DNA of 27,597 nt from Armatimonadota bacterium (lineage in GTDB: Bacteria; Armatimonadota; JAAZEB01). A model generated the notes under the pieces. That model was not told where the DNA came from and searched no databases. It saw only the letters and a program-made list of their open reading frames with translations. The stretch is taken from assembly GCA_012841485.1 (NCBI GenBank), contig DUUU01000342.1, positions 1 to 27,597 on the forward strand. Direction: 5' to 3'. This document shows positions 10,859-27,188 of the stretch, in pieces. The stretch's first letter is position 1, and each line of letters starts with the position of its first letter. A program made the translations under genes and the position numbers.

Positions 10859-12799
10859 TTAGTCGCCACGCCCCGTTTCGGCCCGGACGCCGGATTTGAA
10901 CACCTGCCAGAGGCTGATGATGCCGCGCGGGTTGTACTTCCGGCGCACGTACTCCAGGATGCGCTGGATCGCCTCATCATCCAGCGCATCCAGCCTCCGG
11001 CGCATCTCCTCCACGGGAATCTCCGCCGAGGGATCCAGCGCCTTCAGCTCGTCGAAGACGCGCTCGATGGAGTTCGAACGCCGCTGCGGCCACAGCGTGA
11101 GACCATCCTTGCCGCGCAGAACGGGCGGCACGGGGAAGCGCACCCAGATCGGCTGCTTGAAGTGCGGGTGGCGCAGGAGCAGCTCACCCTTCTCCAATGA
11201 GAGCAGCTTCTCCTTGACCGTCTCGGAGAACATCCGGTAAGGCGGTTCGATGATCTCCTCGGCATCCATGCGCCCATAGAGCGAGGTCGCCGTGTTGCCG
11301 ATCACCTCGGCATCGACCTTCGAGCGGAACTGCTGGGCGCCGAAGAGCACAAACCCGATGTAGCGCCCCCGGGCGGAGATCTCCACGAGCCCGCGCTTCA
11401 GAGGCGTCTCGCCCTGCCTGGGCGCGAACTTGTTCAGCTCATCCACAAAGACGATGACATGCTCGACCGGCAGCTCGTCGCGCTCCTTCAACCGGCTGAG
11501 CCGCCCGATCACCTTCTGGAAGACCAGGTCTTGCGCCGTCGTGCCGATCCCGGAGACGTCGATCACGAAGATGTCGCGGTCCTGGAGCTGCTCCAGGGGA
11601 ATATCATCGCCCTGGCTGACGCGCCCCCGGGTGATCAATCCGGGGCAGCGAGAGGGAATGTTTACCAGACGGTTTCGCATCTTGCGCAGGGTTGCCAGGT
11701 GGTGGCTATGGTACTGGCTGACGTCGCGATCCTCCAGATCCTCGATGATCGTGTTGAGCTTGAGCTCCAACTCGTCAAACGAGAGGACTTCCTCTTTCTG
11801 CACCCAGCGGTCGCGAACAAAGGCGAGAAACGCATCGGCCTTCTCATCCATATCGTCGCGGCCGACCAGCGAGCGGATATCGCCGATCACATCCTTGAGG
11901 CCCCAGACGAAGGGCCGGACGTTGCCACACACCTCGGGGTGAGTGCGCGTGGTGTTGAGAGCCTGTCCGTCGGCCTTGTAGGGCGCGAAGACGCGCACCT
12001 GCTCGAAAGGCGTGGGCGGAAGGCCGAGCGCCTCGTACATTCGGAGTTGCTCTTCGGGCATCACCTTCACGCCATGCGCCTCGTAGCGCGCCTGGAGCGC
12101 CGGGTCGGTGGGGATGTTTGGCTTGTCCAGGAAGAGCAGGTCGGGGCCCTTCACATTGAAGCAGACCACGGCGATGCTGCGCCGCGAGTGGGCGAAGAGC
12201 GAGCGGAGCAGAAACTCGATGTAGGAGGTCTTCGTCGCCAGACCGGAGACGCCGGTGACGTTCAGGTGCGCTCCCTCCATGCCGAGGAGAAACTCTTCGT
12301 CGATATGGATGGGAGTGGTGGAGCCATCGCTGTTTGAGAAGAGCCCGGCCGGGATGCGCCGTTCCGGGTCGATGCGGTCGGCATACATGGCGAACTCGAT
12401 CCCCCGGGGCGTGGGGAAATAGACGTTCCCCGGCGGCGTCGGGCGCATGCGCTCGGACCAGCTCTGCGCGATGGGATCCCGTACCAGCGTGCGGAGCACC
12501 TTCGCCTTGAAGACGAGGACATCCGGGGGGGCCGTCGGCGCGTCGGTGGTCACATCGCCGAAATCGTGGGCGATGTAGTCGTCCATGAAGGAGTGAAGAT
12601 CGGAGTAGCGCTGCGGCTCATCGAGAAGGCCGAAAGTCATCCCCTCGTGGCTGGTCGCGACGACGATAGAGCCGACCTCAATCGCGAGGTTATCACTGCG
12701 CGTCCAGAAGTAGAACTCAGCGGCGGTGGCGGGGCGCGACTCAGTGGCCACCACCTTCCCGATTACTCCGGGCTTGATGTAGAGATTGGGATCGTCCAT
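10859..12799 (-). CDS. HerA-like ATPase (DUF87/AAA, FtsK-HerA superfamily)
   Basis: A 646-residue cytosolic P-loop protein. The N-terminal HAS-barrel-like part (about 1-70) reads IKPGVIGKVVATESRPATAAEFYFW. A nucleotide-binding core follows, with GVSGLATKTSY (183-193, K190) as P-loop and HVIVFVDELNKFAP as Walker B (D453/E454). Then come GLVEISARGRYIGFVLFGAQQFRS (sensor/arginine-finger region) and a C-terminal helical tail. HerA proteins are hexameric DNA translocases often paired with NurA nuclease, but no nurA is seen here. The P-loop lacks the usual GSGKS: Thr precedes the Lys and the loop seems one residue longer. The ATG at 12799 is chosen because the family-like sequence begins there; an ATG at 12826 is possible, and neither has a strong Shine-Dalgarno. 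The substrate could be DNA, but this is inferred from the fold. Confidence 0.85.
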   Translation of the reverse strand: MDDPNLYIKPGVIGKVVATESRPATAAEFYFWTRSDNLAIEVGSIVVATSHEGMTFGLLDEPQRYSDLHSFMDDYIAHDFGDVTTDAPTAPPDVLVFKAKVLRTLVRDPIAQSWSERMRPTPPGNVYFPTPRGIEFAMYADRIDPERRIPAGLFSNSDGSTTPIHIDEEFLLGMEGAHLNVTGVSGLATKTSYIEFLLRSLFAHSRRSIAVVCFNVKGPDLLFLDKPNIPTDPALQARYEAHGVKVMPEEQLRMYEALGLPPTPFEQVRVFAPYKADGQALNTTRTHPEVCGNVRPFVWGLKDVIGDIRSLVGRDDMDEKADAFLAFVRDRWVQKEEVLSFDELELKLNTIIEDLEDRDVSQYHSHHLATLRKMRNRLVNIPSRCPGLITRGRVSQGDDIPLEQLQDRDIFVIDVSGIGTTAQDLVFQKVIGRLSRLKERDELPVEHVIVFVDELNKFAPRQGETPLKRGLVEISARGRYIGFVLFGAQQFRSKVDAEVIGNTATSLYGRMDAEEIIEPPYRMFSETVKEKLLSLEKGELLLRHPHFKQPIWVRFPVPPVLRGKDGLTLWPQRRSNSIERVFDELKALDPSAEIPVEEMRRRLDALDDEAIQRILEYVRRKYNPRGIISLWQVFKSGVRAETGRGD

Positions 12800-13143
12800 G
12801 TGGGTTTGCCTGGGTCTCCTGGGCATTCGCTCGGACTACAGAGCGTTCGATGGGCGCGGCGGCACCATGTAAAGCGGTTCGCCGGAAGCCGGCTGCCCTC
12901 CTGCCGTCGCTTGAGCGGTACCGATAGTGGCGGGACCGGCAACCTGCAGGCGCCGGCGACGATACCACGGATGGACAGGACGGACGCGGGCCTTGGGGAT
13001 GCTCCCATTTACCTGTGTCCATCTGCGTCATCTGCGGATAGCGAGATGCCCGCTTTCAGGGGAAGGGAGAGGCTTCTCCTCTCACGAACTCCCGAATGGC
13101 GCGGTTCCCCGGGAAGGCGCGCCAGGGAGCGAGGAGAGAGGCG
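12800..13143. other. 344-bp intergenic region between divergent genes
   Basis: I see no gene here. It should carry the promoters of the HerA-like gene (-) and the dehydrogenase (+), but no convincing -35/-10 pair stands out. It contains the short 9-nt-period repeat at 13012-13038. The last 15 nt hold the ribosome site GAGGAGAGAG of the dehydrogenase. Confidence 0.5.
13012..13038. repeat. three imperfect copies of a 9-nt unit
   Basis: The stretch can be cut into CCTGTGTCC, ATCTGCGTC and ATCTGCGGA, a 9-nt period with 2-3 differences between neighbours. Similar ATCTGYGTC-rich pieces are familiar as dispersed intergenic repeats in several environmental bacteria (from memory, not searched). Only one copy occurs in this window. 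Confidence 0.45.
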
Positions 13144-14133: not shown

Positions 14134-14253
14134 GCAACGGAGAGGCTCGAATGCCGTGGCGATGGAGCAGGGGAGCGGCTGTCGGCGCCTCGGCGCGCCC
14201 GGCATCCCTCAGCGGGTTCTCGCCGTTTGCGTTGATAGATGAAGGAGCATCTG

Positions 14254-15564
14254 ATGCCTGAAAAAACCCTTCGTGCGGGAGCATCCCTGAGCAATATCAC
14301 GCCGGCCCTGGGGAGCGCCCTGAGCGGCTCGTTCCATCCGCGCTATGCCGATGACGTTGAGGATGATCTGCATGCCCGCGCGCTGGTCCTCGATAGCGCC
14401 GAGATGCGTCTGGCCCTGGTGGTGTGCGACCTGATCTGCCTGCCGCGCGCGGGCGTCGATGCCGCGAAGGCGCGGATCGCCGAGCGCTGTGGGATCGCGC
14501 CGGAGGCGGTGATGATCTCCTGCACGCACACCCACTCGGGTCCGGCCACGTGCGGCCTGCTGGGCACGGATGAGGTGCCTGGGTATGTGGATTTTGCCGT
14601 GCCCCGGATCGCCGACGCGGTGGAGCGCGCGTGCAGGCGCCTCGCCCCGGCCCGGGTGGCCTGGGGCGCCGGATGCGAGCCGGGTCTCGTCTTCAACCGC
14701 CGCTTCCGGATGAAGGATGGGAGCGTGCGCATGAATCCCGGCTACCAGCACCCCGATCTGGTCGAGCCGGTCGGGCCGACCGACCCCGAAGTGGGCGCGC
14801 TCTTCGTAGAGACACCCGAGGGCCGGCCCATCGCCGTGCTGGCAAACTATGCCCTCCACTACGTGGGCGGTGCGCCTGGCACGAGCATCTCGGCCGACTA
14901 CTTCGCGCGCTTCGGAAAGGCGCTGCAGCGCATGCGCGGAGAATCGTTCGTGGTCCTGCTGGGCAACGGCTGTTGCGGCGACGTCAACAACTGCAACTAT
15001 CGTGGCCCGGCGCCAACCCCGGCGCACCGCTGGGAGCGTGCCGACCGCGCGGCCAATCTGCTTGCCGCCGAGGTGATGAAGGTGTGGCAACGCGGCTCCT
15101 TCCGCCAGGAAGTGACGCTGGATTGCCGCCTGGAGGATGTGACCGCCGCGGTGCGCCAACCCGATGCCGAGACCCTGGCGAAGGCGCGCGCGATGCCCTC
15201 CAAGCCGGTGCCAGAGATGGATCGCGACGAGCTCTACCTGCGCGAGGCACTCATCCTGACGCAGGAGGCGCCCGAAGTCCGGACGCCGGTCCAGGCGCTG
15301 CGCGTTGGCGACCTGGGGATCGCGGCGCTCTCGGGGGAGGTCTTCTGCCAGTTCGGGCTCGACATCAAGGCGGCGTCCGGGTTTGAAACCACGATGGTGA
15401 TCGAGCTGGCGAATGACTACACCGGCTACATCCCGACGCTGGCGGCGTTCGAAGAAGGCGGCTATGAAACGTGGCTGGCGCGTTCCAGCAAGCTGGAGCC
15501 CGCCGCGGGCCCGCGCATGGCCGAGACGGCGATCCGCCTGCTCGCGGAGCTGCGCCCGGCGTGA
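14254..15564 (+). CDS. neutral/alkaline ceramidase-like hydrolase
   Basis: A 436-residue protein related to the N-terminal domain of neutral/alkaline non-lysosomal ceramidases, zinc amidases of a distinct fold. It has the early phrase GASLSNITPALG (ceramidases start with a similar ITP motif), then SCTHTHSGP (90-97, with zinc-ligand-like H92/H94). Next come NYALHYVGG (H202, cf. the second zinc His) and GNGCCGDVNNC (237-247), at the place of the ceramidase nucleophile loop. No signal peptide is seen, unlike secreted ceramidases. The AAGGAG at 14242-14247 sits 6 nt before the ATG at 14254, so the in-frame ATG at 14239 is excluded. Such short homologues are common next to sugar and lipid catabolic genes, and their true substrates are unknown. 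It may be an amidase or lactonase of small molecules rather than of ceramide. Confidence 0.75.
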   Translation: MPEKTLRAGASLSNITPALGSALSGSFHPRYADDVEDDLHARALVLDSAEMRLALVVCDLICLPRAGVDAAKARIAERCGIAPEAVMISCTHTHSGPATCGLLGTDEVPGYVDFAVPRIADAVERACRRLAPARVAWGAGCEPGLVFNRRFRMKDGSVRMNPGYQHPDLVEPVGPTDPEVGALFVETPEGRPIAVLANYALHYVGGAPGTSISADYFARFGKALQRMRGESFVVLLGNGCCGDVNNCNYRGPAPTPAHRWERADRAANLLAAEVMKVWQRGSFRQEVTLDCRLEDVTAAVRQPDAETLAKARAMPSKPVPEMDRDELYLREALILTQEAPEVRTPVQALRVGDLGIAALSGEVFCQFGLDIKAASGFETTMVIELANDYTGYIPTLAAFEEGGYETWLARSSKLEPAAGPRMAETAIRLLAELRPA

Positions 15565-15651: not shown

Positions 15652-16137
15652 GTGATTGAGGAGGGCGTGATACGCGTGGCGACCCCGGAGGAGATGCGCG
15701 AGCTGGGCCGGCTCCTTGGCGAGGAGCTGCGTCCGGGCGACACAATCTGCCTGCGGGGCGACCTGGGCGCGGGGAAGACGACGCTGACCCAAGGGATTGC
15801 CGCCGGCATGGGCACGTCTGGGACGGTCGCGAGCCCCACTTTCACTCTCGTCCACGAGCACCCCGGCAAGGTGCCGCTTTTCCACATGGATGCCTACCGT
15901 CTCGACTCCTCTGAGGAGCTGTGGGACCTGGGCTTCGATGACTACCTGCGCGCCGGGGGCGTCGTCGTGATCGAGTGGGGCGAGCGCGTCTCGGAAGCCC
16001 TGCCGGACGAACGCCTCACCCTGATGTTGGCGCATGCTGGTGACGCGCGCCTGGTGAGCATCCAGGCGCATGGCGAACGCGCGAGAGAATTGGAGAGTGT
16101 CTTGAGGACGAAGTGGGGAGCGAGGGAGATCGCGTGA
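15652..16137 (+). CDS. tsaE: tRNA t6A threonylcarbamoyltransferase complex ATPase
   Basis: A 161-residue P-loop ATPase required with TsaB and TsaD for N6-threonylcarbamoyladenosine on ANN-decoding tRNAs. Walker A is GDLGAGKTT (36-44), SPTF lies at 61-64, HMDAYRL at 78-84 and IEWGER at 107-112 with E108 in the Walker B-like position. The GTG at 15652 has GAGGAGG at 15638-15644, 7 nt upstream. It overlaps tsaB by GTGA (16134-16137), so the two are translationally coupled. It lies 87 nt after the ceramidase-like gene and may be read through from it. Confidence 0.95.
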   Translation: MIEEGVIRVATPEEMRELGRLLGEELRPGDTICLRGDLGAGKTTLTQGIAAGMGTSGTVASPTFTLVHEHPGKVPLFHMDAYRLDSSEELWDLGFDDYLRAGGVVVIEWGERVSEALPDERLTLMLAHAGDARLVSIQAHGERARELESVLRTKWGAREIA

Positions 16138-16847
16138 AGGTTCTGGCCGTGGATACAAGCACGGAGGTGGCTGGGATTGCCTTGCTGGAGGGGGGGCAGG
16201 TGCGCTTCTCCCACCGGTTCTTGCACCGCATGGATCTCTCGCGGCGCCTGCTGCCATCGCTCCAGTGGCTGCTTCAGGATTCGGGAGTGGCCCTCTCCGA
16301 GATCGATGCCCTGGGCGCTGGCTTGGGCCCCGGCTCCTTCACGGGAGTACGCATCGGCGTGACGACGATGAAGACGCTCGCCCAGGTCAACGCGCTGCCC
16401 ATCGCCGGGATCAGTACGCTCGCGGTGATGGCCGCCGGTTGCGCCCCTTGCCCCGGCGCGCTCATCTGCCCCTGCATCGACGCGCGCAAGCAGGAGGTGT
16501 ATGCCGGCATCTACCGCGCCACCGGGCTGGAGCCGGAGGAGCTGATGGCCCCGGCGGCGCTTCCCGCGGCAGCCCTGGCTACGCGCCTGGCCAGCTATGG
16601 CGAGCTGGTGCTCCTCTGCGGCACGGGCGTCGCGCGCTACCAGAACGTGCTGCGCCAGGCCCTGGGCGACCGGTTCTGCTACGCTCCCGGGCACGACTTT
16701 CCGGATCCCGTGGTGCTCGCCTACCTCGCGCTGGCCCGGCTGGAGCGTGGCGAGCGTGACGACCCCCTGGCGCTCGTTCCGATCTACGCGCGCCTCTCCG
16801 AGGCAGAGCGAAACCTGGCCGCGAAAGAGAACCCAGACGCACCCTAG
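16134..16847 (+). CDS. tsaB: tRNA t6A biosynthesis protein TsaB
   Basis: A 237-residue ASKHA-fold protein that scaffolds TsaD in t6A synthesis. It begins KVLAVDTSTEVAGIALL (family phrase LAIDTST). It carries GPGSFTGVRIG (65-75) and the DARKQEVYAGIYR segment, all diagnostic. The start is the GTG at 16134, overlapping the tsaE stop and preceded by AGGGAG at 5 nt. A GTG at 16113 would be an unneeded extension. It is followed by a stem-loop terminator at 16872-16915. tsaD and tsaC are not here. Confidence 0.95.
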   Translation: MKVLAVDTSTEVAGIALLEGGQVRFSHRFLHRMDLSRRLLPSLQWLLQDSGVALSEIDALGAGLGPGSFTGVRIGVTTMKTLAQVNALPIAGISTLAVMAAGCAPCPGALICPCIDARKQEVYAGIYRATGLEPEELMAPAALPAAALATRLASYGELVLLCGTGVARYQNVLRQALGDRFCYAPGHDFPDPVVLAYLALARLERGERDDPLALVPIYARLSEAERNLAAKENPDAP

Positions 16848-16925: not shown

Positions 16926-17696
16926 CTAGAAGCGGAATCCCAACAGGTTCGGGCCGCCGCGCACCGCCTGATTCCCGGCCAGGAGGCCAATCCCCGCGCC
17001 GACGACCACGTCGGAGGGGAAGTGCTTGTTTTGGAAGACGCGCGACGCGGCGACCGCCGTAGCGAGCGCGAAGAGGGGCACCTTGTAGCGTGGATACTCC
17101 GACCCAAGAACGGTCGCCATGGCGAAAGCCGCCGAGGTGTGCCCCGAGGGGAACGACTCGAAGTCGGATCCAGGGCCCTCGAAGTGGCCGATGCCATTCG
17201 ATTGGTTCGGCCGGCGCCGGCCGGTCGCCATCTTCACCAGCTGCGTGAGGATGCCGGAGGTGATCAAGGCGTTCGCCATCTTCGTCGCGGCACGCTTCTC
17301 ATGCGCTCCGCCGAAGGCATAGAGGGCGAGGGGAGTGCCCATATACACCGTTGGGGTTCCCAGGTAGCTGATCGAGTGCGATACGTCGCGCGTGGTGCTC
17401 CCGCCCAAGAGTTTCTGTAGGAAAGGTAGCGTGACCGTATCGGTCGCCAGGAGGAGGCCGGCGCCCAGGGCATACGGCACCCAGCCATCGCCCTCCAGGA
17501 AGAACCGCGGGTGTTTGCCGGCCGTGGTGCGGAAGCTGGCCCCCAGGGGGGGCACCGAGGCCTCGGAGACGGGAGCCACGCGGGTCTCTATCCGCGTGGG
17601 GAACGGATCGGCGGTGGCCGGGCCAATGCGCGCACAGGCGAACGAAGCAGTAAGCACCACAGAGAACAGGCCGCATGCGGCCAGGAGTCGGGTCAT
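16926..17696 (-). CDS. exported PAP2-family phosphatase
   Basis: A 256-residue type 2 phosphatidic-acid phosphatase/haloperoxidase-fold protein with the complete three-part active site. These are K-x6-RP (K155, KMATGRRRP), PSGH (183-186) and SR-x5-H-x3-D (S218, H225, D229). The N-terminus LLAACGLFSVVLTASFACA is a signal peptide with a lipobox-like SFAC that may make it a lipoprotein. The catalytic domain would act in the periplasm or at the membrane surface on lipid phosphates such as undecaprenyl pyrophosphate or phosphatidate. The ATG at 17696 has GGAG 8 nt upstream. The frame is open to 17909, but that part lacks sense and would bury the signal. It is convergent with tsaB and divergent from the ApgM-like gene. 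Confidence 0.88.
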   Translation of the reverse strand: MTRLLAACGLFSVVLTASFACARIGPATADPFPTRIETRVAPVSEASVPPLGASFRTTAGKHPRFFLEGDGWVPYALGAGLLLATDTVTLPFLQKLLGGSTTRDVSHSISYLGTPTVYMGTPLALYAFGGAHEKRAATKMANALITSGILTQLVKMATGRRRPNQSNGIGHFEGPGSDFESFPSGHTSAAFAMATVLGSEYPRYKVPLFALATAVAASRVFQNKHFPSDVVVGAGIGLLAGNQAVRGGPNLLGFRF

Positions 17697-18159
17697 CAAG
17701 GCTTCTCCGGATTCCATGGGATCAGGCACGCGATCTCGCGTCGGGTGCGCTTCCATCCGGCGATGATCCGGATTGGGCGGCCGCGTGCCTGGTTGATTCC
17801 GTTCGTGTCCACCGGGGTTCCACGGCGCGTGCCCGGCGCGCCGCCTTCCCGCGACACGGCGGGTCGGGACGGGCAGACCAAGGGCGAACCCACGGGAACC
17901 CGGTGCCAAAAACGCTGCTTAGAGGATCGACCGTGCCCTGCCGGGCAAGTGTTGCCACGGCTGGCGCAGGCGCGCCTCTTCACTCCCGCGATGGAATGCG
18001 GGGGAGAGGGCACAGGCGCCCACCAGCGCGCTGATAGAGCACGCCATTGGGCGCATGCAGTAAGATTGTTCGATAGGCGCGGGCGGATTCCTTCTCGGCT
18101 TGCGCGCCAGCCAACGCCTTGTGCCGGATGGGAGTTGTTGGGGTAGGAAAGAGCTCGAG
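17697..18159. other. 463-bp intergenic region between divergent genes
   Basis: I see no convincing gene, tRNA or known RNA. Open frames across it look like codon-bias shadows and lack ribosome sites. It should contain promoters for the PAP2 gene (-) and the ApgM-like gene (+), but no good -35/-10 pair was found. An imperfect hairpin CTCCCGC/GCGGGGGAG lies at 17983-18006. A GGAAAGAG at about 18147-18154 serves as the ribosome site for the ATG at 18160. Confidence 0.5.
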
Positions 18160-19347
18160 ATGAAGTATGTGATGGTGGTGGCGGGAGGCAGCGGGGATCG
18201 TCCCGTGGGGGCGCTGTATGGGAAGACGCCCCTGCAGGCGGCGCGCCTGCCCGTGCTGGATCTTTTCGCGCGAGAGGGTTTGGTGGGAAGCGCGGACCTG
18301 ATACCGGAGGATGTGGCGATTGCGCCCGAGGCCGCGGCGATGGCCCTCCTGGGTTACTCCCCCGCGCGCTACTACACCGGGCCGGGGCCGCTGGATGCCG
18401 CCGGGCGCGGCGTCTCGCTGGAGCGGGGCGATGTGGCGTTCCGGGTTGACCTCGTCTCCTCCGACGGCGAGACGATCACCAATCCCACCGCGGGTGGCCT
18501 CACGGGCCGGGATGCGGAGGCGCTCTTCGCGCATGTATCTCAGCGGCTGAGGATGCTGAACCTGGCGTTCTATCCGGGGCGCGGGCGCCGGCACGCCCTG
18601 GTCTGGAGCGGCGGCCCCCTGGATGTGCGCACGCTCGCGCCAATTGAGGCGGCGGGGAAGCCGCTGGCGGAGGTGATGCCCGAGGGGGATGGCGAGTCGA
18701 TGCTGCGCGGCCTGATCTACGATTCGCTGGAGGTGCTGGATGGCCACGAGATCAACGCTCGTCTTCGTGACGAGGGGAAGCCACCGGCGAATATGATCTG
18801 GCCGTGGGGAGGTGGGCGCAGACCCTCGCTCCCCTCCTTCGCGGCAGCGCGGGGTGTTTCCGGCGCGGTGATCTCGCCGTCGGCCTACTGGCGGGGCCTG
18901 GCAAACCTGGCCGGATTGCGCGCGCCCGAGGTGCCAGGGGCGACGGGGCGAATCGACACGGACTACGCCGCGAAAGCATGTGCCGCGATTGCCGCGCTGC
19001 ACGAAGTGGAGTTCGCGCTGGTCCACGTGTGCGCGCCGGGAGTGGCGTCCGCGCGGGGCGACGCGGAGGAGAAGGTCGATGCCCTCCAGCGCCTCGATGA
19101 GCGTCTCCTGGCCCCGCTGGTGAAGAGCCTCAAGACGCTGGATGACTACCGGGTGATGGTCGTGCCGGACATCGTCTTCCCGGTGGAGACGCGCGTGCCC
19201 ACGCGCGACCCGGTGCCGTTCGTCCTCTACGCGAGCAGTGGCGTCCGGCGCCAGGTGCGCGCCGCTTTCGATGAGAGCGCCATCGAAGAGTCGCCTCTGC
19301 GCTACGAAGAAGGCTACCGGCTAATCGAGTTGCTCCTGGAAGGATGA
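18160..19347 (+). CDS. ApgM-fold protein lacking the catalytic residues (probable pseudoenzyme)
   Basis: This 395-residue protein follows cofactor-independent phosphoglycerate mutase of the archaeal type (ApgM, alkaline phosphatase superfamily) along its whole length. Matching segments include GDRP, GKTPLQAA, LLGYSP...YYTGPGPLDAAGRG, LERGDVAFRVDLVS, GATGRIDTDYAAK, EEKVDALQRLDERLLAPL and DPVPFVLY. The catalytic set is gone. The metal Asp of the first DG is G9 (VAGGSGDRP), and the nucleophile loop PGSD is replaced by APEAAAM (55-61). The APDEAGH motif is APGVASA (G294, A298), PDH is PDI (I338), and the late RTHT His is P347. The reading frame is intact, so it is not a decaying pseudogene. It probably has a binding, regulatory or changed catalytic role. 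The ATG at 18160 is preferred over an upstream one at 18100. Confidence 0.82.
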   Translation: MKYVMVVAGGSGDRPVGALYGKTPLQAARLPVLDLFAREGLVGSADLIPEDVAIAPEAAAMALLGYSPARYYTGPGPLDAAGRGVSLERGDVAFRVDLVSSDGETITNPTAGGLTGRDAEALFAHVSQRLRMLNLAFYPGRGRRHALVWSGGPLDVRTLAPIEAAGKPLAEVMPEGDGESMLRGLIYDSLEVLDGHEINARLRDEGKPPANMIWPWGGGRRPSLPSFAAARGVSGAVISPSAYWRGLANLAGLRAPEVPGATGRIDTDYAAKACAAIAALHEVEFALVHVCAPGVASARGDAEEKVDALQRLDERLLAPLVKSLKTLDDYRVMVVPDIVFPVETRVPTRDPVPFVLYASSGVRRQVRAAFDESAIEESPLRYEEGYRLIELLLEG

Positions 19348-25092: not shown

Positions 25093-26664
25093 TCAACAAT
25101 GGTCTAGCAAGAACCAAAAACGCTCCGCTTCTTCCCGCAAGCGTTCCGGATCGAAGCATCCTCGCGTCGTCGGACAGAGCGTGAAGAAGCCCCTAAAACC
25201 ACGACAGCGCAGGATGGAGATCAGTTCCTTCACCTCGCCATTTCCGCGTCCGGGAAGCGTGGGCGTACCGTCCCACAGGCCGTCGCAGATGTAGAGTTGG
25301 TCCATCCAGCGCTTGATGCGGCCCCTATAGTAGACGCGCAGGAACGGCTTATCACCCACGGCCGCAAAATGGGCGGGGTTGAAGGCCACGCGCACTGCGG
25401 GAGAGCCCGCGGCCGTCAGGATCTCCTCGGTGTGCCGCGCTGTGTCGCAGAACGTGCCCGGCTCGTTCTCCACCACCAGAACCGCGTTGCGCTCGCTCGC
25501 CGCGCGAGCGGCCGCCTGCAGCAGCGCCACCACCCCGGGCGTGGCCGATTGCCGGTCGTCGCCCGCCAGGAGGGCCGCCATGCGCAGGCGCTGCGTTCCG
25601 AGGCGCGGGAGCAGATCCAGGCTTTTCTCGAACCGCCGGTAATGGAACTCCTGGTCTTCTCCGGGAGTCACGCGGCCCAGGCCGGCGCCAAATGCTGAGA
25701 CGACCAGCCCCTCATCGCGCAGATTGTCGCCAAAACGCTGGATCTCGGCCAGGCGGCGTCGCAAGAGGTGATCGCCCAGGGTGTCGCCGATCTCCACGTG
25801 TCGGATCCCCTGGGCGCGCAGGCTCCGCGCAACGTCCGCGAGCTTGGCTGCCGGGTCATCCAGGACGGCCGCGAGCGTGAACTCCTCTTGTTGTAGGCGG
25901 GCCGCCTTGATCTTACCTCGCTGCATCTGGCAATCATCGCACGCGGGGTTATCGCAGAGGACCGCCGCCGGGTCCTCGCGCAAAGCGGCGACCGTCTCTT
26001 CGAACACTTCGCGTGCCGGCATCAGCCGGGCCGTGGCCTGCCCCACTTTGCCGACCCGCAACCAGCCTGCTCGGCGGAATCGGGGCTCGAGGCCGATGAA
26101 GTCGCGGTGCGGCCCGGGGTAGCGCTCCAGGCGAAGGGTGACCTCCTTGCCGGCATCATCGATGTAGGTGGCGTAGTGCTCCGAGAGGTAGGGCGCGTTC
26201 ACCGCCTCTTCGGCGCCGTGGAGCAGGGTGTTGCGGTCCTGGTCGACGCCCAGCAGAAGCACCTTGCCACGTAGTTCCACCAGACGTCCGAAGGGCGTCT
26301 CGGGGCCTACGGCCGTCGGCGAGAGTTCATGATCCTTGAGGAGGAAGGAGGCCCGCGGCCCGATGGCGGCCACGGAGTGCGTGGGGTGCAAACTGCGCAA
26401 CACCCCTGGGCGCTGCCGGAAGACCTCGGTGATCCGGCCGACGTTGGAAGGCGTGCTCTCGCGGCGGAAGACGCCCGAGGACATCGTGGGCATAGCGAGT
26501 GTGCCTTCCTTCCCGATCACGGCCAGCAGAGCATCGATCACGGTGTCGGCGCCGCCTTCGACTTCGCCAAGCGCGGAGAGCGCGCTATGCATCAAGACAA
26601 CATCGCCGTTTTCCAATCCGAGCGCGCGCAGATCGCGGGCGATTTGGTCTTTGGTAACCTTCAT
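25093..26664 (-). CDS. AAC(3)-family acetyltransferase-like protein fused to a xylose isomerase-like TIM barrel
   Basis: This 523-residue protein has two recognisable parts. Residues about 1-230 follow the AAC(3)/antibiotic_NAT family: IARDLRALGLENGDVVLMHSALSALG, then AMPTMSSGVF, HPTHSVAAIG, the GKVLLLGVDQDRNTLLH core and catalytic-type H149 with E152. A cysteine-rich joint, CDNPACDDC (C237, C242, C245), may bind metal. Residues about 260-523 look like an AP-endonuclease-2/xylose-isomerase TIM barrel: HVEIGDTLGDHLLR, LVVENEPGTFCDT, VAFNPAHFAAVGD and GRGNGEVKELISIL. Some usual metal ligands appear changed (Asp to Asn in FNPAH; the last Glu not seen). The ATG at 26664 is chosen because the family sequence begins there. 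It precedes rodA. It is probably not an antibiotic-resistance determinant: many such homologues act on other amines. Confidence 0.82.
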   Translation of the reverse strand: MKVTKDQIARDLRALGLENGDVVLMHSALSALGEVEGGADTVIDALLAVIGKEGTLAMPTMSSGVFRRESTPSNVGRITEVFRQRPGVLRSLHPTHSVAAIGPRASFLLKDHELSPTAVGPETPFGRLVELRGKVLLLGVDQDRNTLLHGAEEAVNAPYLSEHYATYIDDAGKEVTLRLERYPGPHRDFIGLEPRFRRAGWLRVGKVGQATARLMPAREVFEETVAALREDPAAVLCDNPACDDCQMQRGKIKAARLQQEEFTLAAVLDDPAAKLADVARSLRAQGIRHVEIGDTLGDHLLRRRLAEIQRFGDNLRDEGLVVSAFGAGLGRVTPGEDQEFHYRRFEKSLDLLPRLGTQRLRMAALLAGDDRQSATPGVVALLQAAARAASERNAVLVVENEPGTFCDTARHTEEILTAAGSPAVRVAFNPAHFAAVGDKPFLRVYYRGRIKRWMDQLYICDGLWDGTPTLPGRGNGEVKELISILRCRGFRGFFTLCPTTRGCFDPERLREEAERFWFLLDHC

Positions 26665-26722
26665 GATGAAGCCCCCCGATGAGCGAGTGTGGTTTCTCCC
26701 TTTTCGGTGGAGAGAACGCCAC

Positions 26723-26737
26723 ATCCTGCAGCAGGAT
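26723..26737. promoter_or_regulatory. 7-bp inverted repeat upstream of the AAC(3)-like gene
   Basis: ATCCTGC-A-GCAGGAT is a perfect dyad centred about 65 nt before the ATG at 26664, at a place suited to an operator. A second weak dyad (TCTCC...GGAGA) lies nearer the gene at about 26695-26713. No clear promoter hexamers were found. Confidence 0.3.
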
Positions 26738-26903
26738 AGTGTCAGGAAGCATGGCACGAAATGTTCGGGCGCCTGGCAGGCCCCTGGAATGCGCTCGGGT
26801 CCTAGCGCCCGTAGCCCGCAAAGCGATCAACGCTGTGCAGCCTGCGCTGGCGGCAGTGATTGCACCATGCCCGGCCTGGTGGCTGCGCCAAACTTGCCCA
26901 TAA

Positions 26904-27188
26904 ATGCTGACGCTATCCACTGATTCGGGGCAGCTTCACGACCAACAGCTGCTCAAAGAGCATAGGATGCTCTCATCCAGGAGTCCGAAGGGCGACTGCT
27001 GTGACAACGCCGCGATGGAATCATTCTTCCACATGCTCAAGACCGAGTTGACCAACAACCGGGTCTTGCACACTCTGAAAGGAGATAGGGGGGAGATCCT
27101 CGCCTCAGTCGAGGTCTGGTGTAACCGGCAGCGGCTGCACTCCGCGCTCGGCTACCAAGCCCCAGAAGAGTATAAGAGCATATGGTGA
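26904..27188 (+). pseudogene. IS3-family transposase (OrfB, DDE integrase core), 5'-truncated remnant
   Basis: The frame carries the C-terminal third of an IS3-type transposase. It shows TDSGQLHD (in place of the usual DRGSQY with the second catalytic Asp), QLLKEHRMLSSRSPKGDCCDNAAMESFF (third catalytic Glu), LKTEL, and the typical ending WCNRQRLHSALGYQAPEEY. The N-terminal part with the first Asp and the orfA partner are absent. The ATG at 26904 is incidental. About 30 nt upstream in another frame, PGLVAAPNLPIN faintly recalls the APNLL motif, suggesting an internal deletion. It is inactive and marks an old insertion between the AAC(3)-like operon and the HNH gene. Confidence 0.8.

Follow-up and report, generated by a model that had tools for sequence, protein, structure and literature searches.

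A degenerate ApgM/ThrB2-type protein under purifying selection in the Armatimonadota

Why would a bacterial lineage keep a full-length protein of the archaeal-type phosphoglycerate mutase (ApgM) fold after nearly every catalytic residue has been replaced? The question is raised by a gene on a 27,597-nucleotide contig of an Armatimonadota bacterium (DUUU01000342.1, assembly GCA_012841485.1; the window), which starts with ATG and encodes 395 amino acids in an open frame. The original prediction described an intact ApgM-fold frame with almost all catalytic residues exchanged, and this is confirmed: the motifs that it named are present in the translation, and an alignment with 14 window-clade rows and 147 others (161 in all) shows that six of the seven metal-ligand and nucleophile residues are gone, leaving D337. 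The full-length architecture is borne out by a match to the NCBIfam model apgM (TIGR00306) over residues 2-393 (342 bits, curated cut-off 320) and by the predicted model, in which the ApgM fold appears to be complete. The gene and its altered sites are as follows, the gene being defined by translation, profile matches and fold and the sites by translation and alignment:

18160..19347, forward strand: degenerate ApgM/ThrB2-type protein, 395 amino acids, stop codon included
18184..18186, forward strand: codon 9, metal-site-2 Asp replaced by Gly (D9G)
18322..18330, forward strand: codons 55-57, nucleophile loop Gly-Ser-Asp replaced by Ala-Pro-Glu (S56P)
19039..19053, forward strand: codons 294-298, Asp-Glu-Ala-Gly-His replaced by Gly-Val-Ala-Ser-Ala, with the site-1 changes D294G and H298A
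19168..19173, forward strand: codons 337-338, Asp337 retained, site-2 His replaced by Ile (H338I)
19198..19200, forward strand: codon 347, site-1 His replaced by Pro (H347P)

In the iPGM of Caenorhabditis elegans, site 1 consists of Asp, His and His and site 2 of Asp, Ser, Asp and His, according to a passage of PMC5382265, and the window residues were assigned to these sites by motif order and by alignment to solved ApgM chains. The residues expected of an active ApgM or iPGM mutase are replaced throughout: the phospho-accepting Ser is Pro56 in all 14 window-clade rows, metal site 1 (Asp, His, His) reads G294, A298 and P347, and metal site 2 (Asp, Asp, His) reads G9 and I338 with D337 retained. 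Compared with the archaeal-type ApgM structures 2zkt, 3kd8 and 3idd, the protein is without the nucleophile, without site 1 and left with one of four site-2 residues. It shares the metalloenzyme domain with GpmI (iPGM), phosphopentomutase and the alkaline phosphatase superfamily but, unlike these, lacks the metal ligands and the nucleophile. Because the nucleophile, all of site 1 and most of site 2 are missing, the two-metal, phospho-serine chemistry of the superfamily should be absent, as judged from the sequence.

The archaeal-type identity given in the original prediction did not hold, since the closest relatives belong to the PRK04200/TIGR02535 type (putative homoserine kinase ThrB2, exemplified by BT2402 of Bacteroides thetaiotaomicron); phosphoglycerate is therefore only one of several possible ligands. 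Both models are among the best-scoring full-length models for the window protein, which stays under their cut-offs (PRK04200, 353 against 426 bits; TIGR02535, 347.7 against 446.3), and the window clade branches amid proteins of this type (one of which, P0016, exceeds both cut-offs) and apart from the archaeal-type rows. A further likeness is that hom, thrC and purC are neighbours of the gene in some relatives. By sequence and fold the window protein belongs to the ApgM subfamily, by its residues it is not an active mutase and by cut-off it is not a member of TIGR02535. The zinc-site residues of BT2402, described as fully conserved in a section of PMC9765024, are lost in the window protein. In the portion of PMC7311316 that concerns it, BT2402 is required for growth of B. 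thetaiotaomicron without threonine and does not restore growth of an Escherichia coli thrB mutant; the kinase activity of the TIGR02535/ThrB2 family is itself unproven. The related PhpG phosphonoformyl transferase family (NF038358) carries a non-mutase role in its model name, and the window protein scores 180 bits against its cut-off of 545. Pseudoenzymes in general are a known kind of protein, and no paper on pseudoenzymes of this phosphoglycerate mutase (PGM)-like ThrB2 family was found in the open-licence literature searched.

The losses are shared by a clade. Ten database proteins that are 64-92% identical to the window protein carry them (the three with organism names are all from Armatimonadota or Armatimonadetes), and the next relatives show at most 50% identity. 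The 14 window-clade rows comprise 11 proteins (the window protein included) and three genome loci, L001 and L002 from the Armatimonadetes metagenome-assembled genomes AS09scLD_344 and AS09scLD_256 and L003 from NC_groundwater_1073, of which two apparently repeat listed proteins. These loci cover all three genomes examined from their class; no other of the 291 phylum genomes searched reaches their 757-779 bits, and the next best scores 451 bits. G9, P56, E57, G294, S297 and D337 occur in all 14 rows, position 298 is Ala in nine, Val in four and Ile in one, position 338 is Val in eight and Ile in six, and position 347 is Pro in 13 and Leu in one. All seven sites are intact in 141 of the 147 other rows, the exceptions being four degenerate proteins (P0068, P0081, P0096 and P0107) and a pair of Rokubacteria loci that differ at a single site. 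The latter, L011 and L012, are distant ApgM-like loci in which Glu replaces the site-1 His298 and the other sites are intact. Sequencing or assembly error, an outcome that would have made the losses unique to this contig, was rejected because they recur in other records.

Much of the family scaffold is kept. Of the 80 positions conserved to 97% or more among 152 intact rows, the 11 window-clade proteins retain 60; the 20 lost positions include the six ligands and, for example, G55, D57, R75, Y143 and T340. At fifteen positions the window clade has an invariant residue that occurs in <3% of intact rows, including new Arg at 83, 141, 143 and 264, and the invariant new polar residues are Y20, E57, R83, D97, R141, R143, R264 and D307. 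Pairwise ratios of nonsynonymous to synonymous substitution (dN/dS, NG86), of which the deeper ones are rough since synonymous divergence is near 1, are 0.137 (window-L001), 0.204 (window-L002), 0.213 (L001-L002) and 0.272 (window-L003) for the degenerate gene. Other genes gave similar values between L001 and L002: 0.202 for the intact ThrB2-type paralogue, 0.232 for FtsW, 0.222 for TsaE, 0.185 for TsaB, 0.158 for fucosidase and 0.116 for archaeal-type ApgM. Simple decay is disfavoured by this similarity. That purifying selection maintains the degenerate protein, which the original prediction had read from the conserved scaffold, is well supported, and the general features of a pseudoenzyme were found together: a conserved fold, a missing catalytic motif and purifying selection.

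The window gene probably encodes a pseudoenzyme that is derived from a ThrB2-type protein and has been retained by selection for ligand binding or regulation. Its status as dead but selected is well supported, and the ligand-binding or regulatory role is what we infer from it: when a dead enzyme has kept most of its cleft and is clearly constrained, the simplest reading is a protein that binds a ligand or a partner. Given the 60 conserved positions and the four new invariant Arg residues, a stably folded ThrB2 relative would still close on a small phosphorylated or amino-acid ligand in its two-domain cleft, and the ligand-bound protein might thereby control or stabilise a partner protein. Enzymes of threonine or purine metabolism would be the first partner candidates because the gene sits with homoserine dehydrogenase (hom), threonine synthase (thrC) and purC in some related lineages. 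These hints on partner and ligand (hom, thrC and purC, and also gapA-pgk in the neighbourhood of L095) stem from distant members of the superclade.

Next to the window gene itself lie three genes identified by Pfam matches and by synteny (for TsaE, with L001 and L002):

15652..16137, forward strand: TsaE, conserved neighbour
16113..16847, forward strand: TsaB-like protein with a TsaD-family domain, conserved neighbour
16926..17756, reverse strand: PAP2-family protein, upstream neighbour on the opposite strand

The order tsaE-tsaB-PAP2-degenerate ApgM-glycoside hydrolase-fucosidase-FtsW is common to the window and L001, L002 has this order without the glycoside hydrolase and L003 has a different one. 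No Rfam family was found in the window at gathering scores. Paralogues were searched for in the three window-clade genomes (G001-G003), following the proposal in the original prediction of a second, intact GpmI or ApgM. An intact PRK04200-type copy is present in all three and an intact archaeal-type ApgM in G001 and G002, and GpmI was not found over its cut-off in any of them. The intact PRK04200-type copy adjoins threonine synthase in G003 and a gene of the adenosine-specific kinase family in G001 and G002.

Several observations weigh against retention for ligand binding or regulation. The window-class gene lies with tsaE, tsaB and PAP2, away from threonine and purine genes, and the L003 copy is placed differently again, adjoining anthranilate synthase component I. 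Between the window and L001, only TsaB (0.251) among nine genes exceeds its dN/dS of 0.137 (the others range from 0.067 to 0.123), and constraint there is therefore weaker than on most neighbours. Asp337 is retained in 84 of 86 degenerate proteins (among the matches listed for the wider set described below), for which this explanation does not account. A metal-free activity may be compatible with the lost ligands, the regulatory step is one that we infer, and nearly all of the evidence is metagenome-assembled sequence.

It is unlikely that the gene is a relic of displacement, in which the unrelated GHMP kinase ThrB took over homoserine phosphorylation and the PGM-like kinase decays slowly, kept by its place in the operon alone. 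Across Armatimonadota genomes, with G216 and G217 excluded, ThrB exceeds its cut-off in seven of the 97 whose ThrB2-type copy reaches 280 bits or more and in 88 of the remaining 192, a count that scored eight lower-scoring copies as absent (G069, G070, G071, G073, G185, G222, G280 and G281). This complementarity is like that in gut genomes, where, in an excerpt of PMC9026213, TIGR02535-type proteins (putative ThrB2) are complementary to thrB and clustered with thrC and hom. Absence of ThrB may in part be an effect of incomplete assemblies.

In some Armatimonadota, degenerate copies still occupy the hom/thrC-purC-[ApgM]-tilS cluster, directly after purC. Across 107 genomes with ThrB2-like slot copies, these are degenerate in 11 of 16 with ThrB against two of 91 without (Fisher p 1e-9, kinship ignored). 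The eight lower-scoring copies in this count were picked by eye with ThrB status already known, seven of them in ThrB genomes; without them the figures are four of nine against one of 90 (p 1.6e-4, kinship ignored). The three window-class genomes were entered by their intact copies, and three copies at contig edges (G049, G066 and G210), intact wherever readable, were counted as intact. Nine of the 13 degenerate slot copies lie directly after purC (G030, G069, G070, G073, G216, G217, G222, G251 and G281), three have purC on a different contig (G071, G185 and G218), and no purC was found for G280. Among 13 intact-copy neighbourhoods compared (L104, L105 and L108-L118), in which some gene names were assigned by eye, purC directly precedes and tilS directly follows the gene in four (L105, L108, L109 and L118), tilS is also present in one more (L113) and the other eight, some on short contigs, have neither arrangement. 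The row in L109 reads hom, a threonine-synthase-like PALP gene, purC, ThrB2, tilS and an FtsH-like gene.

The ThrB association with degenerate slot copies is strong as a raw count, the pattern fits relaxed catalysis after displacement by ThrB and some slot copies are very divergent (G222, G251 and G280). Set against decay, however, all 13 degenerate slot copies are near full length (362-410 amino acids), the replacements in the window clade are clade-invariant and its dN/dS is like that of other genes. An independent-pairs test gave five supported pairs, all of them uninformative on the ThrB association. The window-clade genomes also fit the pattern imperfectly: G003 has the degenerate copy and no ThrB over cut-off, whereas G001 and G002 have ThrB and yet keep an intact copy, and the open reading frames seen around purC in these two include no ApgM gene.

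A wider set of 241 proteins was built by searching with four degenerate hits and with a further alignment, each search giving its best 120 matches, and is biased towards degenerate proteins by these queries. Among the matches listed, 155 retain all seven sites and 86 are degenerate in several patterns. A set of 240 rows holds 78 degenerate ones of four types: 45 mainly D-P-N-L-D-H-A, with site 2 kept apart from Ser and site 1 lost, 18 S-P-[LM]-R-D-L-P, 11 of the window type and four H-[TS]-G-L-D-H-[VI]. The Ser-Pro-type group (alignment A6) was found in none of the 291 phylum genomes at a strict cut. In the tree, 37 degenerate and eight intact rows group on a single branch (SH-aLRT 99), with the intact rows nested inside this superclade; the eight already depart from the remaining intact rows at D57, R75 and E291 (8/8 each) and elsewhere. 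All trees come from quick searches supported by SH-aLRT alone, and several of the degenerate rows sit on long branches. A single clade of the 37 degenerate rows was not rejected by the approximately unbiased test (p 0.666), the constrained tree having the higher likelihood, and the trees therefore do not establish many independent losses. Ser56 and site 1 are retained in G218, which lacks D9 and H338, whereas G216 and G217 keep D9 and D337-H338 without Ser56 and site 1; such complementarity speaks for two or more routes of ligand loss, provided that ligands were not regained.

Two further variants were seen. In the close slot-copy pair L139 (G030) and L149 (G029), one is intact and the other lacks four ligands (DGDYSHQ), with ThrB undetected in its genome, apparently a recent loss. 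L119, L120, L123 and L125, from four genomes, show the pattern DPDHTHH, in which site 1 is kept and Ser56 and Asp337 are lost.

The graded set bears on the possibility that the old cleft houses a new enzyme activity, one that needs no metal or uses metals differently, which seems improbable for the window protein. D57, R75, S110, H162, D242 and E291 are already changed, wholly or in at least half, in the intact-ligand group of the same superclade, suggesting a change of specificity before metal loss; the largest sister group (45 proteins among the matches listed) has retained most of metal site 2, with D337-H338 present in every protein and D9 in 40 of the 42 readable, and the window clade shows no variation at its new polar residues. 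The ligand positions themselves, however, have turned into Gly, Pro, Ala, Val or Ile. Very unlikely is an inactive subunit that joins the cell's own intact ThrB2-type paralogue in a hetero-oligomer: such a paralogue is present in all three window-clade genomes, but its gene and the degenerate one lie on separate contigs, and since G216 and G217 have a degenerate copy with the archaeal type as their only intact form, such pairing cannot explain retention in general.

Retention as a selected pseudoenzyme may tentatively be extended to the PGM-like 'homoserine kinase' family as a whole, although the extension is doubtful: the family might serve the hom-thrC-purC module in a second, non-catalytic way that outlives catalysis once ThrB supplies the kinase step. 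This role might be that of a metabolite-responsive regulator or assembly factor, with the protein persisting after its catalytic site was lost in more than one way. If true, it would bear on BT2402, which is needed for threonine synthesis and yet is no replacement for E. coli ThrB. Natural variants, graded from seven ligands down to one, are at hand for asking what TIGR02535/ThrB2 does. The interpretation in the original prediction thus stands for fold, clade, selection and paralogues and is revised for family type and for the losses, which are graded and extend beyond the clade.

Minor observations concern other genes of the window. Neutral-ceramidase-like proteins lie near the degenerate copy (14239-15564, forward strand) and near the intact paralogue of a related genome (L064, 9499-10935, reverse strand). 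A frame of 554 amino acids (25093-26757, reverse strand; 97% identical in L001) fuses an aminoglycoside 3-N-acetyltransferase-family domain, which scores under the cut-offs of five AAC(3) models, to a xylose-isomerase-like TIM barrel. The 655-amino-acid frame at 10859-12826 (reverse strand) is 96% identical in L001 and has no Pfam or NCBIfam match at the thresholds used. Near the window end, an integrase-core domain match (26904-27188, forward strand) is perhaps a mobile-element remnant.
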